Assembly (NCBI GenBank): GCA_027489105.1
Contig: JAIYAJ010000002.1
Span: forward strand, 1 to 5,431
DNA length: 5,431 nt
Source: Zymomonas sp.
Lineage (GTDB): Bacteria > Pseudomonadota > Alphaproteobacteria > Sphingomonadales > Sphingomonadaceae
Direction: 5' to 3'
The position numbers and the translations under genes are program-made. Position 1 is the stretch's first letter; each line of letters starts with the position of its first letter. The notes beneath the pieces are model-generated. The model made no database searches. It was not told the origin of the DNA and saw only the letters and a list, made by a program, of their open reading frames with translations. Below, in pieces: positions 1 to 5,431 of the stretch.

Positions 1-315
1 GACGTCGATCAGCGCGGTGGAGCCTACCAGGATGCCACCGGGGCTGTAGAACCAGACGTTGCCGCCCGTGCCGGTGAGAGTGTTGCTCGAATCGTACAAC
101 CGGCTCTGGATCGTGCCGTTGAGGGCGATCCTGCGAGACGGGTCGTTGGGAATGATCCGGTTGAGGACGGTGAAGCCGCCCGTATTCGTCACCGAATTGC
201 GGAACAGCACCGACGAACTGGACGGCAGGAAGACGATGTCGCCCCCACCGATGCCCGCATCGTCGGGCGTCCAGTTGATGATCGCCGTCGGCGCGTTGAC
301 CGTGATCGTGTCGCT
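1..315 (-). repeat. TPS/haemagglutination-activity domain, copy 2 (exoprotein residues 1425-1529, continues off edge)
   Basis: Second copy of the secretion domain, in the same frame, with SDTITV, INWTP, FTVLNRIIPNDPSR, SRLYD and GTGGNVWFYSPGG. The DNA offset from copy 1 is exactly 4023 bp. Similarity also extends upstream: GAFAGTPGQL at 1403-1412 resembles the predicted mature N-terminus GAFAAGAPSL at 63-72. So the duplicated unit begins where a mature secreted protein would begin, but here it follows a Pro8 tract and not a signal peptide. The domain's C-terminal continuation is outside the window. Confidence 0.87.
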
Positions 316-3300
316 GCCAGGGTTGCGGACGATGTCATATTCCGCCGTCGACAGCTGGCCGGGCGTGCCTGCGAAGGCGCCGCCGCCCGCGGGCGGCGGG
401 GGCGGGGGCGGGGGCGAGATCGCGCCCTGCTGCACCTGGATCGAGAACATCATCGACGCCGTCTGGTTGTTGGCGTCGGTGACGGTCACTTCGAAGCTGT
501 ACGGGCCGGCGATTTGCGGCGTTCCGGTGATATTGCCGGCCGAATCGACCACCAGCCCGAGCGGGACCGTGCCGCCGGTGACGGCAAAGCTGTACGGCGG
601 AACGCCGCCGACCGCTGCGATCGACTGATTGTAGCTGGTACCGGTCTCAGCATCGGGCAGGCTTCCGGGCGTATCGAACCCAGGCGCGGCCGGCGGCGGC
701 GGCGGCGACGAGCATGTCGCGTTGATATTGCATTCGCCGGTAATCGTGCCGGTGGTGAGCGAATATTGCGCAGCCGTGATCGTGCCGGTGCCCACCACTT
801 CGAACGTGATGCCGCGATCGGGCATATCGACCGACAGATCGAGGCCCGATGGATTGTCGAACAGGATCGCGCCGTCGGTGGCGCTGATCAGATTGTCCGG
901 GGCACCCTGCTGAACATCGACGCCGGTGCCGAAGATGTCGACCTGCGCCGTCGATGTGATGTCGCCATTACTGGCCACGATGGAGAAGTTGCCGACGGTC
1001 GCGGTTCCGGGCTCACTGCCCACCCCGGCGAAACCGCTGAGATCGGCAGTCACGCCCGCGAGGAGGATATCACCGCGAACGGTGGGCTGGTTGAAGCGCG
1101 CCGTCGATACGATGCCCAGCGATCCTCCCGTTCCGCTGCCGCCGGCACCGGGCGTTTCGCTGCTCCCGCCATTGCCGCCGGAACCGGTGGCCGCAAAGTT
1201 GACCAGACCCGAGATGCTCAGACCCGCGTCCGAACCGTTCGAGCCACGCGAATCGAGGGAGAGTTGGCCGCCCGTCGCCAGGCCGCCGGCGCCGCCATCG
1301 CCCTGGACCCCCTGAATCGATGGGCCACCCTCGCCACCATTGCCTGCTATGGCATTTGCAGAAACCGTCACGCCACCCAGTTGCACGCGGCCCTGCGTGC
1401 CCGCAGTGTCGGGACCACTGACCAGGCCGACCTGCACGGAGCCGCCCGTCGCATCGCCGCCGACGCCGCCTGCACCGCCCTGCGTCGGCCCGGACGGGAC
1501 CTGGCCACCGCTTCCGCCCGCGCCGCCAGCAGCGTCTGCGGTAAGCGTGATCGGTCCACCGAGATTGAGTTGCCCCAGTCCGGCCTGCGCCCCCACGAAG
1601 ATGCTGCCGCCCGTTGCCGCACCACCGAAGCCGCCCGTGGCGCCGCTGGCGGCATTTCCGCCGAACCCGCCTGCACCGTTGGCATTGAGGAAAAATTCGG
1701 TGCTGCTGGCCGTGACGCTGCCGACCGTGCTGCCCCCGGTCAGACCGGCGATGTTCGCGTCGCCGCCGATACCTAAGCCGGCATTGCCGACACTGCCCAG
1801 GACATCGGCAAAGCTCTGGCCCCCTTGACCGTTCGCGTTGAGCGTTACCGCCACGCCATTGATGTTGATCGTGCCTTCCTGGGCCGTGATCGCGACACCG
1901 CCACCGCCATTGAGCAGGTCGAAGCCGCCCTGACCGATGCCGCCGCTATAGCCGGCGCCGCCCTGGCCGTTGGCCTGGATCGTACCGCCACTCATGCTCA
2001 GCGTGCTGCCGGTTCGCACCGTGACACCGGCAAAGCCGCCGGTGCCGATGCCTCCGGTCGAATTGGTGAGGGCAATGCCGCCAGTCACCGCATCGCCGCC
2101 GCCACCATCGGCGATCAGCAGCACGCTGCCCAGGGTCATGGTCGTCCCGCCGATGGCGGCAATGTTCGCGGTGCCGCCCTGACCGTCGCCGCCCGCGGTT
2201 TCGCCTTGTCCGCCGAAACCGTTGGCGAACAGGCTTACTCCCGAATTGGCGTTGATCGTGCCGACACCGCCACCGAAGACCAGTTCACCACCGGTGCCTG
2301 CACCACCATTCGTTGCCGGCGACGAGCCGCCCGTTCCGGTGCCGCTGATCGATACCGGGCCCATGAAGTCGATCGTGCCGTCCGCTGCAACGACAATATT
2401 GGCGTTACCGCCGACGGCGATACCGCCTGCTCCCCCGCTGTTCGCGCCACCCGACGCATCCATCGAAGCATCGACCGGACCAAAGAAATTGAGCGTGCCG
2501 CCATCGGCGCTGGCGCCAAAGCGACCGCCGGTCGCGCTGCCACCGCCGCTCGACCCCCCATTGGCGATTGTGGCATCGCCCTCGAAGGTGACATTGGCTC
2601 TAACCGCGACCGTTGCGCCGTTGGACGCAAGGATGTCGAATCCGCCGGCCCGGGCGTTGCCGGACGAACCTCCCAGCGAATCGCCGCCATTGGCGGATGT
2701 CCTGACGAAGAGCCCCAAGGGATTCTGAGCAGTGCCGAAATTGATCGAAGCGGTTGCGCCCGATGCGGTGATACCGACATAGCCACGCTCCGGCCCCTCG
2801 CCAGGATAGACGGAAAGCGCGTTGCCGCCCGTTCCGTTGCTGCTGTTGCCGCCGCTCCCCCTGGCAACGAGGCTGGCAAGGCCGCTGCCACCGACCGCGA
2901 TCTGACCATCGGTCGCCCCCAACAGGATTTTGCCGGCAAGCCCGTTGCCGGCCACACCTAGGCTCGAGAATCCGCCAAAGCCCGACGCGGTGATGTCAAG
3001 GCCGCCGAGATTGAGCGCACCACCGCTGATCGCGCTGACCAAAACGGTGCCCGCGACACCGTCGCCACCATTGCCCGAGACAGGCGCCCCGCCCCCGCCG
3101 CCATCGGCCTCGATCGTCAGCAGGCCGCCGATATTGATCGCCGAGTCGCTGCCCTGCGCGCGTATTGTTACATCGCCAGCCGTGCCCGTGCCCCCGTCGC
3201 CGCCATTGGCAAAGGTTTTTATCTCCAGCGAGCCCGCAGAGATGGTGCCCGAGGTGCCCGCAAGCACCGAGACATTGCCGCCGGTGACAGTCCCGCTGCT

Positions 3301-4587
3301 CTCGCCGATGCTCGTGTCGATGGCGAACGCGCCGGCCACGCTCACATTGCCTGAGGTCGTGTCGACAATGATGTCGGCACCCGCGCCATTGTCTGCGTCG
3401 ATGCTGGCATCGCCGAGGAAGGTCGTGCCCGACAGCGTCAGATCGCGCGAGGCGCCGATCGTTGCGTCGGCCCCGATCGACCCACCCTGAATGCGAACCG
3501 TGCCGGTTCCGGGCTGGTTGTTCGGGATGGTCGTGTTGCCGAACACGTTATTGCCGGCCGACAGGATCACCCCCTGATCGGTGACCGAAGCGCCGCCGGC
3601 CTCGGAGAATTCGAGCGAGCCGCCGGTCAGCAGCATCGTCAGCGCCTGGTTCTTCGGAACTGCGACCAGATAGATGTTGCGCGACGTGCCGGAACCCTGC
3701 GGCGTGACCACGGTCGTGCCGCTGTGCGTGATCGCATCGGCCGCTCCGGTACCGACCGGCACCGAGATGTCGAACAGGCCGCTGGAGAAGGTGATATCGG
3801 CCCGCTCGGCGGCCACATAGGCGACGCTGCCCTGCGACGCGACACTGCCCGACTGGACGATGCGCGGCGCGAGCACGCCGACATAGTTGGACGCCTGGAA
3901 ATTGGCCGTCTGGATTTCGACCGTGCGGCCCGCATCGCTCGCGCCGATCGACACGACATCGGGATTGGGATCGGAGGGCAAGCCGCCGAAGTCGATCGGC
4001 ACGCTGGACAGGATGATCCCGCCGACATCGATGGAGGCAGAAGCGCCGACGAGAAGGCCGCCGGGGCTGTAGAACCAGACATTGCCGCCGGTCCCGATCA
4101 AATTGTTGTTGCCGTCGTAAAGCCGGCTGTTGATCGCCCCGTTGAGGGCGACGGCGCGCGTCGGGTCGTTGGGCAGGATGCGGTTCAGGACAGTGAAGCC
4201 GCCCTGCAGCGAGGGGTCGTTGCGATAATTGGCGGTCGTGCCCGACGGGAGAAAGTCGATCGGGCCGCCACCCGACTGAACGTCGGTCGGGGTCCAGGTG
4301 ATGATCGAGGTCGGGTTGCTGACCGTGATCGTATCGGTGCTTTCGCTCTGCGTCAGGACGACGCCAGCGCCGAGACTCGGTGCGCCAGCGGCGAACGCGC
4401 CGTTGGCCGCGAGGCTTTCGCGCGTGGGGAAGGCGAGGATCGTCGCCATCGCCAGCGCCGACGTAAGCGTCCGCATGTTGCCGCCACCGCGCGCCGCGCG
4501 TTCGGATGGATCGACCGCGTGCCGCCCCAGCAATCCCGGTCCGCTGCCGAGATGTCCGTTACCGCGCCCTGAGCCCCGCTTTGTCAT
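1..4587 (-). CDS. Giant TPS-type filamentous haemagglutinin-like exoprotein with duplicated TPS domain (3' end outside window)
   Basis: One minus-strand frame stays open for 1,529 codons from ATG at 4587-4585 to base 1, with no stop seen, so the C-terminus lies beyond the left edge. Order of parts: basic Gly-rich leader (1-37); signal-peptide-like segment (about 38-61); TPS/haemagglutination-activity domain with GTGGNVWFYSPGG (84-188); beta-helix-like stem with YVGVLAPRIVQSG and PKNQALTMLL (about 190-450); glycine-rich repeats (about 452-1210); a segment with two cysteines (1286, 1292); Pro5 (1295-1299); He_PIG-like domain (about 1302-1385); Pro8 (1392-1399); second TPS domain (1425-1529). 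In this family the TPS domain directs export through an outer-membrane TpsB pore, and the repeats form an extended beta-helical fibre at the cell surface. Adhesion is an inference from the family. The protein is very poor in Lys and Cys. It follows the CHAT gene after 46 nt. The start is uncertain: Met38 at 4476 is a credible alternative. The family call is strong, the exact ligand and function unknown. Confidence 0.92.
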   Translation of the reverse strand, partial: MTKRGSGRGNGHLGSGPGLLGRHAVDPSERAARGGGNMRTLTSALAMATILAFPTRESLAANGAFAAGAPSLGAGVVLTQSESTDTITVSNPTSIITWTPTDVQSGGGPIDFLPSGTTANYRNDPSLQGGFTVLNRILPNDPTRAVALNGAINSRLYDGNNNLIGTGGNVWFYSPGGLLVGASASIDVGGIILSSVPIDFGGLPSDPNPDVVSIGASDAGRTVEIQTANFQASNYVGVLAPRIVQSGSVASQGSVAYVAAERADITFSSGLFDISVPVGTGAADAITHSGTTVVTPQGSGTSRNIYLVAVPKNQALTMLLTGGSLEFSEAGGASVTDQGVILSAGNNVFGNTTIPNNQPGTGTVRIQGGSIGADATIGASRDLTLSGTTFLGDASIDADNGAGADIIVDTTSGNVSVAGAFAIDTSIGESSGTVTGGNVSVLAGTSGTISAGSLEIKTFANGGDGGTGTAGDVTIRAQGSDSAINIGGLLTIEADGGGGGAPVSGNGGDGVAGTVLVSAISGGALNLGGLDITASGFGGFSSLGVAGNGLAGKILLGATDGQIAVGGSGLASLVARGSGGNSSNGTGGNALSVYPGEGPERGYVGITASGATASINFGTAQNPLGLFVRTSANGGDSLGGSSGNARAGGFDILASNGATVAVRANVTFEGDATIANGGSSGGGSATGGRFGASADGGTLNFFGPVDASMDASGGANSGGAGGIAVGGNANIVVAADGTIDFMGPVSISGTGTGGSSPATNGGAGTGGELVFGGGVGTINANSGVSLFANGFGGQGETAGGDGQGGTANIAAIGGTTMTLGSVLLIADGGGGDAVTGGIALTNSTGGIGTGGFAGVTVRTGSTLSMSGGTIQANGQGGAGYSGGIGQGGFDLLNGGGGVAITAQEGTININGVAVTLNANGQGGQSFADVLGSVGNAGLGIGGDANIAGLTGGSTVGSVTASSTEFFLNANGAGGFGGNAASGATGGFGGAATGGSIFVGAQAGLGQLNLGGPITLTADAAGGAGGSGGQVPSGPTQGGAGGVGGDATGGSVQVGLVSGPDTAGTQGRVQLGGVTVSANAIAGNGGEGGPSIQGVQGDGGAGGLATGGQLSLDSRGSNGSDAGLSISGLVNFAATGSGGNGGSSETPGAGGSGTGGSLGIVSTARFNQPTVRGDILLAGVTADLSGFAGVGSEPGTATVGNFSIVASNGDITSTAQVDIFGTGVDVQQGAPDNLISATDGAILFDNPSGLDLSVDMPDRGITFEVVGTGTITAAQYSLTTGTITGECNINATCSSPPPPPAAPGFDTPGSLPDAETGTSYNQSIAAVGGVPPYSFAVTGGTVPLGLVVDSAGNITGTPQIAGPYSFEVTVTDANNQTASMMFSIQVQQGAISPPPPPPPPAGGGAFAGTPGQLSTAEYDIVRNPGSDTITVNAPTAIINWTPDDAGIGGGDIVFLPSSSSVLFRNSVTNTGGFTVLNRIIPNDPSRRIALNGTIQSRLYDSSNTLTGTGGNVWFYSPGGILVGSTALIDV
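391..414 (-). repeat. Hexanucleotide tract encoding Pro8 hinge (residues 1392-1399)
   Basis: Plus-strand bases 397-414 are three exact copies of CGGGGG, preceded by GGGCGG. On the coding strand they read as alternating CCC/CCG codons for eight prolines. The unit is 6 bp, so a gain or loss of one unit changes the protein by two prolines without a frameshift. The plus strand, which is the transcription template, carries four G-runs (391-393, 398-402, 404-408, 410-414), so it could fold as a G-quadruplex. Confidence 0.8.
433..684 (-). other. He_PIG / putative Ig-like domain within the exoprotein (residues ~1302-1385)
   Basis: The segment begins PGFDTPGSLPDAETGTSY, continues AVGGVPPYSFAVTGGTVPLG and DSAGNITGTPQIAGPYSF, and ends VTVTDANNQTA...FSIQV. 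This is the classical pattern of the He_PIG family: (Y)..I.A.GG.PPY.F....G.LP.GL..D..G.I.GTP...G.Y.F.VTV.D. Its length of about 84 residues is normal for one domain. Such domains act as spacers in surface proteins. It is flanked by Pro5 and Pro8 tracts, so it forms an isolated module between the repeat stem and the second TPS domain. Confidence 0.85.
691..705 (-). repeat. CGG trinucleotide tract encoding Pro5 hinge (residues 1295-1299)
   Basis: Five uninterrupted CGG triplets on the plus strand read as five CCG proline codons on the coding strand. The tract is preceded by Cys-Ser-Ser and followed by Ala-Ala-Pro, and marks the N-terminal border of the He_PIG-like domain. Slippage here would stay in frame. 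Confidence 0.75.
712..732 (-). other. Cysteine-containing junction segment (C1286 and C1292 of the exoprotein)
   Basis: The segment ITGECNINATCSS closes the beta-helical part just before the Pro5 tract. The two cysteines, six residues apart, are the only ones I see in the 1,529 codons. A small disulfide loop is plausible in an exported protein; it could cap the first helix. The disulfide is inference. Confidence 0.5.
960..3235 (-). repeat. Glycine-rich beta-helix repeats, about 17 degenerate units (residues ~452-1210)
   Basis: The stem is built of successive units of about 37-60 residues. Each has a hydrophobic strand and small-residue turn (such as VTLNANGQGG, ITLTADAAGG, VSISGTGTGG), a variable Gly/Ser/Ala loop, a GGxATGG or GTGG motif, a second strand, and a closing strand ending in LNLGG, TINANS or similar. 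The loops vary most in length; those at about 1450-1700 and 1130-1350 are longest and richest in GGxGG. The pattern fits coils of a right-handed beta-helix with glycine loops projecting outward. DNA identity between units is low, so these are old, diverged repeats and not recent tandem copies. Confidence 0.8.
4024..4338 (-). repeat. TPS/haemagglutination-activity domain, copy 1 (exoprotein residues 84-188)
   Basis: This first copy contains TDTITV, ITWTP, FTVLNRILPNDPTR, SRLYD and GTGGNVWFYSPGG, ending ASIDV. These are hallmarks of the filamentous haemagglutinin N-terminal domain in the sphingomonad subfamily; SPGGLLVG occupies the place of the classical NPNGI-type motif. It lies shortly after the predicted signal peptide, as expected for the domain read by a TpsB transporter. 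It aligns without gaps to copy 2 at 1-315, with about 69 of 105 residues identical by hand count. Confidence 0.88.
4405..4476 (-). other. Signal peptide region of the exoprotein
   Basis: Residues 38-61 begin with Met-Arg, continue with the hydrophobic run LTSALAMATILAF, and end in SLAA, which fits cleavage after Ala60 or Ala61 (Sec-type). The mature protein would then begin NGAFAAG. The 37 residues before it are Gly/Arg-rich and do not resemble the usual extended signal peptide region of large TPS proteins, so they may be untranslated if Met38 is the true start. Confidence 0.65.
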
Positions 4588-4633
4588 ACCATCCCCCAAA
4601 CGAACCAAAACCCGCCCGTATGAATGCGCCCCA
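4588..4633 (-). other. Short intergenic gap between CHAT and exoprotein genes
   Basis: Only 46 nt separate the CHAT stop from the exoprotein ATG. I see no inverted repeat followed by a T-run that would act as a terminator, and no convincing promoter. This supports cotranscription of the two genes, with independent translation starts. Confidence 0.6.
4592..4597 (-). promoter_or_regulatory. Possible Shine-Dalgarno site for the exoprotein
   Basis: On the minus strand GGGGGA lies 4 nt before ATG 4587. The match to the anti-Shine-Dalgarno sequence is only partial and the spacing is short. A competing site, GGTGG at 4488-4484, lies 7 nt before the in-frame Met38 (ATG 4476-4474), which directly precedes the hydrophobic signal segment. 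The sequence alone does not decide between the two starts. Confidence 0.35.
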
Positions 4634-5431
4634 TCACTGCGCCGTCGATGCTGCCCCTGCGGCCTTTGCCGCCGGAAGCAGCGCCCGCTGGCCGTCGCCG
4701 ACGATCGCGAAGGCCGACCAGTAATAAGGGTGGGACGTATTCGGATCGTCCATCAGCCCCACCTGTGCATTGCGCATCGCGGTCGCCATCGGCGTCCCCG
4801 GTGGCGCGGTGAAGAGGCCGGTGATCAGCCGCTTCGTGGCGTTGAAATCGTCCGGCACCGGCCAGTGGCTGGCCAGCACCGAGCGGGCACCTGCGCCGAC
4901 GAAGGCACGCACCAGACCATCGAGTGCAAAGTTGCCGCCGGTTTCGATCCCTGCCTCGCGCGAGGCGGATACGGTGGCGAGCCCTGCGGTATCGCAGGCC
5001 GACAGGATCACCAGATCAGCGTCGAGCTTGAGGTCGAAAATCTCCTTGAAGCTCAGCAATCCGTCGGAACTGGTATCGCCGAACGAGGTGATCAGCGCAG
5101 GGCGTGCAGGGCATTCGGGGCGCGGCGCGGTCACCAGGCCGTGGGTCGCGAAGTGCAGGATGCGATAATCGTTTAGATCATCGCGCCCGAGCAACGCGGT
5201 GTCGCTGAAGGCGCTCTGGGTCAGAACACTGGCGCGACCTGCGCCCAGCACCCTTTGGGCAAGCTTGAGTTCGGCAGGCGAAATCGGATCCAGCCAGGTG
5301 TTCACCGGCCATTCGCAATCGGCTTCGCGACTGGCGGAGGCCAGGCGGATGCGCTCAGGTGGGGCAGCATTTTCGCCCAGGCCTAGATAGGCCTGCTTGC
5401 CACGCGCGGGAGCGATGGTGCGGACATCGGC
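4634..5431 (-). CDS. CHAT-domain (caspase-like) protein, C-terminal part (5' end outside window)
   Basis: The minus-strand frame is open from the right edge to TGA at 4636-4634, giving 265 residues in the window. An internal GTG at 5305 is not the start, because the frame continues upstream with family-like sequence (AYLGLGENA). The catalytic dyad of the CHAT family is present: His in HFATHG (codon 5143-5141) and Cys in SACDT (codon 4996-4994), 49 residues apart. Further CHAT signatures follow: GGNFALDGLVRAFVGAGARS, SHWPVPDD and YYWSAFAIVGDG near the C-terminus. CHAT domains belong to peptidase clan CD with caspases and separase, and often sit after TPR repeats; any TPR region would lie off the right edge. 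No membrane segment is visible in this part. The substrate is unknown. Its position 46 nt upstream of the giant exoprotein, on the same strand, suggests one transcript and a linked role such as processing, quality control or response. That role is inference. Confidence 0.9.
   Translation of the reverse strand, partial: ADVRTIAPARGKQAYLGLGENAAPPERIRLASASREADCEWPVNTWLDPISPAELKLAQRVLGAGRASVLTQSAFSDTALLGRDDLNDYRILHFATHGLVTAPRPECPARPALITSFGDTSSDGLLSFKEIFDLKLDADLVILSACDTAGLATVSASREAGIETGGNFALDGLVRAFVGAGARSVLASHWPVPDDFNATKRLITGLFTAPPGTPMATAMRNAQVGLMDDPNTSHPYYWSAFAIVGDGQRALLPAAKAAGAASTAQ

Follow-up and report, generated by a model that had tools for sequence, protein, structure and literature searches.

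Architecture of the multi-TPS exoprotein

TpsA exoproteins of the type Vb, or two-partner secretion (TPS), systems, such as HMW1, HxuA, and EtpA, possess a signal peptide, a TPS fold at the mature N-terminus and a long repeat block, and have a TpsB encoded nearby. The TPS secretion domain normally occurs once per exoprotein, at its front. Here, we analysed a stretch of 5,431 nucleotides from Zymomonas sp. (contig JAIYAJ010000002.1, positions 1 to 5,431; hereafter the window), the main gene of which lies on the minus strand, starting at about 4587 and still open at the left edge (open reading frame, ORF, 4608 to 1). As judged from sequence, this gene was shown to encode a two-partner-secretion exoprotein of tandem modules, each consisting of a TPS domain, a Gly-rich block, and a terminal cysteine pair. 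It shares the features listed above with HMW1, HxuA, and EtpA, but this protein and its relatives carry one or two further TPS domains within the chain, and the NPNG position of those TpsAs is occupied by SPGG here and by SPNG in one internal copy.

P0002 (2436 aa), recovered by searching proteins with the front end of the window protein, is identical to the latter at 1471 of 1492 residues over the overlap. In P0002, the second domain (TPS2) is complete (residues 1368-1642), and behind it come a stem, a repeat block, and a cysteine pair of this second module; a stem and repeat block after copy 2 were what the initial annotation had proposed to look for. Two-module frames were also found, stop to stop, in a Rhizorhabdus metagenome-assembled genome locus (L001, 2736 codons) and in genome G153 (L070, 2731 codons), while the 4586-codon frame of genome G115, on a contig of 5.03 Mb, comprises three modules (L074, hereafter the triple). 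The TPS2 domains differ by 19-21% among the three doubles. The modules were shown by their sequences to be joined by proline-rich hinges, with additional Ig-like (immunoglobulin-like) hinges in the doubles, where about 115 residues with a modelled Ig-like fold separate the first cysteine pair from TPS2; in the triple, the next TPS starts 12 and 24 residues past the cysteine pair. The Gly-rich repeat block is read as a putative β-solenoid, its end being modelled at low confidence, and solenoid 1 shows a ratio of nonsynonymous to synonymous divergence (dN/dS) of 0.17-0.20 in three pairs.

Similar to the C-terminal disulfide anchor of HMW1 and HxuA, a close cysteine pair follows the repeat block, and such pairs hold the sole cysteines of the mature protein (one pair per module and no other cysteine in P0002, L001, L070, and L074). 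Unlike that anchor, a pair ends every module, so the internal pairs cannot be C-terminal anchors, and the disulfide here is a predicted one.

Two TPS copies in a single frame

Within the window, the N-terminal domain (TPS1) and TPS2 share 69 of 111 residues (62%) without a gap (BLASTP, single comparison, E 1e-46) in one uninterrupted minus-strand frame, which agrees with the initial annotation that the same stretch is repeated in frame, ungapped and about two-thirds identical. The two copies had been placed correctly as well, except that the second extends further, beginning at about 381 and leaving the window at its edge. At the DNA level, two stretches of the repeat align, one of 181 nt (76% identity) and one of 52 nt (81%), both at a spacing of 4023 nt, which is divisible by three. 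An assembly join or a frameshift is extremely improbable as the source of the two-copy gene, because one open frame with the same architecture recurs in independent assemblies, in two cases within a contig of several megabases (4.3 and 5.0 Mb); in addition, dN/dS across the linker is low (0.10-0.18), and nothing was found in favour of an artefact.

Hidden Markov models (HMMs) recognised the TPS domains in part. The NCBIfam model TIGR01901 scored 17.7 and 17.3 bits with the two fragments, under its cut-off of 29.1, whereas the Pfam TPS model PF05860 gave no match to the full window protein, 24.4 bits against a cut-off of 33.5 for the copy-1 fragment and nothing for the copy-2 fragment. Curated HMMs alone would not have settled the second TPS domain. 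A PF05860 match over the cut-off was reported for the genome of L001 (G001), and the miss in the window marks a matter of model sensitivity, not of family membership. Structure comparison of models revealed a TPS fold in the L001 counterparts of both copies, by which the internal copy was shown to have a TPS fold in modelled form; the closest solved folds to these domains are EtpA, HxuA, and HMW1.

Constraint on internal and N-terminal copies

The internal copies were compared with a reference set of 97 TPS domains, each the first of its frame and some near-identical, in which 67 columns are at least 80% conserved. The internal copies keep 27-29 of the 31 conserved positions within positions 1-150 and 8-12 of 14 within positions 151-200, while only 6-12 of 22 are kept within positions 201-280, below every reference (lowest fraction, 0.59) and compared with 19-21 of 22 in a control group of six. 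The residues lost belong mainly to GLFDI and VAVPKNxAxTML in the last third. The same split was found in the internal copy of P0007, an unrelated double (29/31 in front and 9/22 in the last third). The dN/dS between L001 and L070 for the first, middle, and last parts is 0.091, 0.070, and 0.050 in TPS1 and 0.079, 0.218, and 0.243 in TPS2. For pairs of N-terminal domains (n = 40, 72-96% identical), the median ratio of last-part to first-part differences is 0.8, with a ratio of 1 or below in 25, whereas it reaches 1.9-4.9 in five of six internal pairs and 2.63 between the two internal copies of the triple. Judging from these patterns, the internal copies are shown to be under purifying selection, with a pattern of constraint unlike that of the N-terminal copy. 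By comparison with solved TPS folds, the retained part corresponds to the end of the helix and the first coils.

Folding outside the cell is thought to drive export of TPS chains. The explanation that we favour, and consider fairly probable, is that each internal TPS caps the N-terminal end of a further solenoid rod and nucleates its folding, and that TPS1 alone addresses the single TpsB. TPS1 would be the only copy to engage TpsB in the periplasm, and the chain would be exported once, front end first. Once outside, each internal TPS could act as N-cap and nucleus, allowing the second or third solenoid rod to fold independently past a flexible hinge, and the result would be a longer jointed fibre together with a restart of the folding thought to pull the chain out. 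Of the three roles proposed initially for the internal copy, that of a structural cap has the strongest support, since constraint of the N-terminal type persists in the internal domain only in its front part; re-engagement of the transporter is less favoured. In the simplest reading, the internal copies would be caps and nuclei for further rods, and the last third would serve a job of the front copy only, such as addressing TpsB; the latter is the weaker half of this reading.

Several observations weigh against this explanation. The dN/dS contrast in the last part arises partly from a high dS (1.37) in TPS1 (dN, 0.069 vs. 0.184), three of the 40 N-terminal pairs also reach a ratio of at least 1.9, and the internal pair of L070 and P0005 shows no last-third excess (0.40). 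The middle part (positions 151-200) is less telling, since 36 of the 97 references are no better there than the best internal copy. Moreover, the six internal copies probably represent one event and the references are partly near-identical, which leaves two independent origins, this one and P0007. A third double, P0013, provides no last-third data, as its second TPS is cut at 184 residues; of its closest match, in genome G868, 1999 of 2163 codons were read and contain one TPS, the remainder being too short for a complete second TPS. In addition, the constraint on the last third of TPS1 could instead serve the junction to solenoid 1, and the contacts of FHA with its transporter are described, in the review PMC5422565, in the N-terminal and central parts.

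A broader proposal is offered more tentatively, as a possibility that we hold to be somewhat short of probable. The TPS domain may combine a transferable cap and folding nucleus (the first ~135 residues) with a last-third address or initiation patch (GLFDI...VAVPKNxAxTML) that only the foremost domain of a chain requires, so that the cap alone could link two or three rods, each nucleated independently, into a jointed fibre, with the number of modules varying between species at one locus. Since the natural internal copies retain one of these parts but not the other, the two jobs of the TPS domain may be separable with native parts, and multi-TPS proteins would offer a ready system for studying folding-driven export over very long chains.

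Alternative explanations

A different use of the internal domain is conceivable inside the periplasm, where the cysteine loop closing a module would pause in the TpsB pore and the next TPS would bind POTRA and restart export module by module. The cysteine pair at the end of every module and the short distance from it to the next TPS in the triple fit such a restart, and a disulfide loop that locks the C terminus in the pore is described for HMW1 and HxuA in the review PMC5422565. However, the internal copies have lost or relaxed the part that is conserved in N-terminal copies, and the Ig-like segment intervenes in the doubles, so we regard a restart as unlikely. Relaxation of the middle and last parts, as well as the rarity of multi-TPS proteins, would also suit a leftover of fusion that evolves as part of an adhesive display surface. 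This is unlikely in view of the first part of TPS2, which is as constrained as that of TPS1 (dN/dS given above) despite the 19-21% difference between whole TPS2 domains, and which was kept in the further internal copy of the triple too.

It is also conceivable that the protein is a polyprotein, the hinges of which are cut by the co-encoded CHAT protease, leaving the internal TPS at the N-terminus of an independent rod. The CHAT gene adjoins the TpsA gene, the end of its product in the window (71% identity with its L001 counterpart across 249 aa) holds the His and Cys motifs HFATH and LSACDT, which we take to be the catalytic motifs of a CHAT protease, and the L001 protein has a signal-peptide-like N-terminus. 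Nevertheless, CHAT also stands beside single-TPS genes, in 16 of the 17 loci L003-L019, in which no second TPS was found (some frames there run off the locus), and no cleavage site is known; we therefore consider this cleavage improbable.

Evolutionary history

In a tree of 51 rows, the internal copies of P0002, L001, L070, and the triple fall, together with P0005, on one side of a branch (98/93), where the two copies from the triple are sister to each other (100/99). P0005, a partial protein whose sequence starts with the domain, is likely a second module. TPS1 and TPS2 are 49-50% identical within each of P0002, L001, and L070, indicating a long separation. A recent duplication or gene conversion was rejected on account of this divergence and of the grouping of the internal copies, which likewise looks like the trace of one old duplication or fusion, later amplified to three modules in a relative. 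The initial proposal of a fusion or tandem duplication of two full exoproteins therefore holds for the two full modules, the second without a signal peptide, but the event appears to have been a single old one rather than a recent one. P0007 and P0013 are doubles placed elsewhere in the tree, and TPS1 of the triple groups with P0003 and the internal copies, away from TPS1 of the doubles (92/89, not starred, midpoint root).

Either intragenic duplication or fusion of two neighbouring TpsA genes may have been the origin. Genome G115 retains a separate single-TPS TpsA gene in the same cluster as the triple. Solenoid 1 of the doubles weakly resembles both the first and second solenoids of the triple and a single-TPS solenoid, while the best scores of solenoid 2 outside its own orthologues are to single-TPS solenoids (BLASTP; all scores low and the sequences Gly-rich).

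Frequency of multi-TPS proteins

Multi-TPS proteins are rare. More than one separate TPS was present in three of the 91 proteins of the front-end search (P0002, P0007, and P0013), for which candidates were limited to 845-2688 aa, and in none of the 9 + 99 further proteins of two later searches (59 of the 99 with any TPS). The two TPS matches of P0086 were read as one split domain, and it was rejected as a double. In the genus sample, 13 of 14 genomes match and three are multi-TPS; the corresponding numbers in the family sample are 57 of 149 and two. In a larger draw from the family, 151 of 397 genomes match and at least three (G001, G115, and G153) have two or more TPS in one frame, with at most six candidates per genome scored and same-frame pairs picked by eye among the matches listed. 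Across Pseudomonadota, 134 of 398 genomes match PF05860, with no same-frame pair among the matches listed. The multi-TPS counts from these two last samples are lower bounds, and further genes may exist. Long frames were searched for TPS domains with HMMER filters off and with another model. Large size was rejected as the cause of extra TPS domains, as single-TPS frames of up to 3788 codons exist (L018, where the frame runs off the locus). A plasmid or viral origin was rejected as well: a search for near matches among plasmids found none, and 20 stretches in viral contigs matched a pattern, none encoding a relative. In the open-licence literature, no paper was found under terms for TPS domains that are tandem, multiple, second, internal, or additional; the 'two TPS domains' of PMC10449530 are one each in two proteins.

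Gene neighbourhood and other features

The features of the window are listed in Table 1. The TpsA start codon is probably the ATG at 4587-4585, preceded by a GGGGGA-like ribosome site, because its MTKRG is conserved in L001, while the alternative ATG at 4476 is replaced there (SRTL for MRTL).

Table 1. Features of the window and the basis of each assignment
Feature	Coordinates	Strand	Basis or remark
Multi-TPS TpsA exoprotein gene	1..4587	-	ORF, open at left edge
Long signal peptide region, to ...ESLAAN	4402..4587	-	sequence; cleavage site predicted
TPS1, N-terminal secretion domain	3571..4401	-	residues 70-346 of P0001; L001 orthologue folds as TPS
Solenoid 1, Gly-rich repeat block	733..3570	-	sequence; solenoid fold predicted
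Cysteine pair 1 (CNINATC)	712..732	-	sequence
Pro5 linker	691..705	-	sequence
Ig-like domain (He_PIG, PF05345)	433..663	-	profile match 4.7e-12
Pro8 linker	391..414	-	sequence
TPS2, internal secretion domain, first 127 residues	1..381	-	runs on beyond window; complete in P0002, L001, L070
CHAT protease-like protein, C-terminal part	4634..5431	-	PF12770 6.2e-44; directly upstream of TpsA gene

In L001, the gene order is TpsB (ShlB 9.9e-18, POTRA_2), TPR-CHAT, TpsA, a radical-SAM gene, and a UdgX-type gene, and the order in L070 matches it. TpsB thus lies two genes upstream of TpsA in L001, with relatives in the L070 and G115 clusters, all outside the window. The G115 order is TpsB, a single-TPS TpsA (1834 codons), CHAT, the triple TpsA, and radical SAM, in which the two TpsA genes share one TpsB in the stretch read. 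L071 and L072 show the order TpsB, single-TPS TpsA, CHAT, and radical SAM. The single-TPS exoproteins of L071, L072, and L073 resemble those of the multi-TPS loci in the cysteine pair and in their TpsB and CHAT neighbours, and L071 and L072 share the flanking radical-SAM gene; they differ in having one TPS and in lying before CHAT, whereas the multi-module TpsA gene is placed after it.

A TPR-CHAT protease-like gene is a regular neighbour of these TpsA and TpsB genes (window 4634-5431; L001 2618-5734; L003-L019). Among 17 other loci (L003-L019; L002, of 3.4 kb, left out), TpsB is present in all 17 and CHAT in 16 within the DNA covered, and CHAT there lies before TpsB, often with about 3 kb between. 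A link of the CHAT domain with two-partner secretion was not found in the open-licence literature.

As for the C-terminal ends, a motif, DEPVTGxGNxDLW or DTPITSGGNSSLW, is conserved after the cysteine pair among TpsA relatives, including the ends of L001 and L074. The motif pattern, which misses the second form, occurs in 43 of 103 proteins, with many others partial, and 42 of these 43 have a cysteine pair within the last 420 residues. As recorded, P0002 stops a short way past its final cysteine pair and lacks the proline-rich tail and the C-terminal motif seen in L001, while residues 4295-4383 of L074, near its C-terminus, are a run of 89 prolines. Moreover, a fragment matching only the front part of TPS (residues 1159-1281) directly precedes the full internal TPS of P0007. 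Finally, the TPS domain of a Sphingopyxis TpsA in L019 (9773-13512) is split across two overlapping frames in the record.
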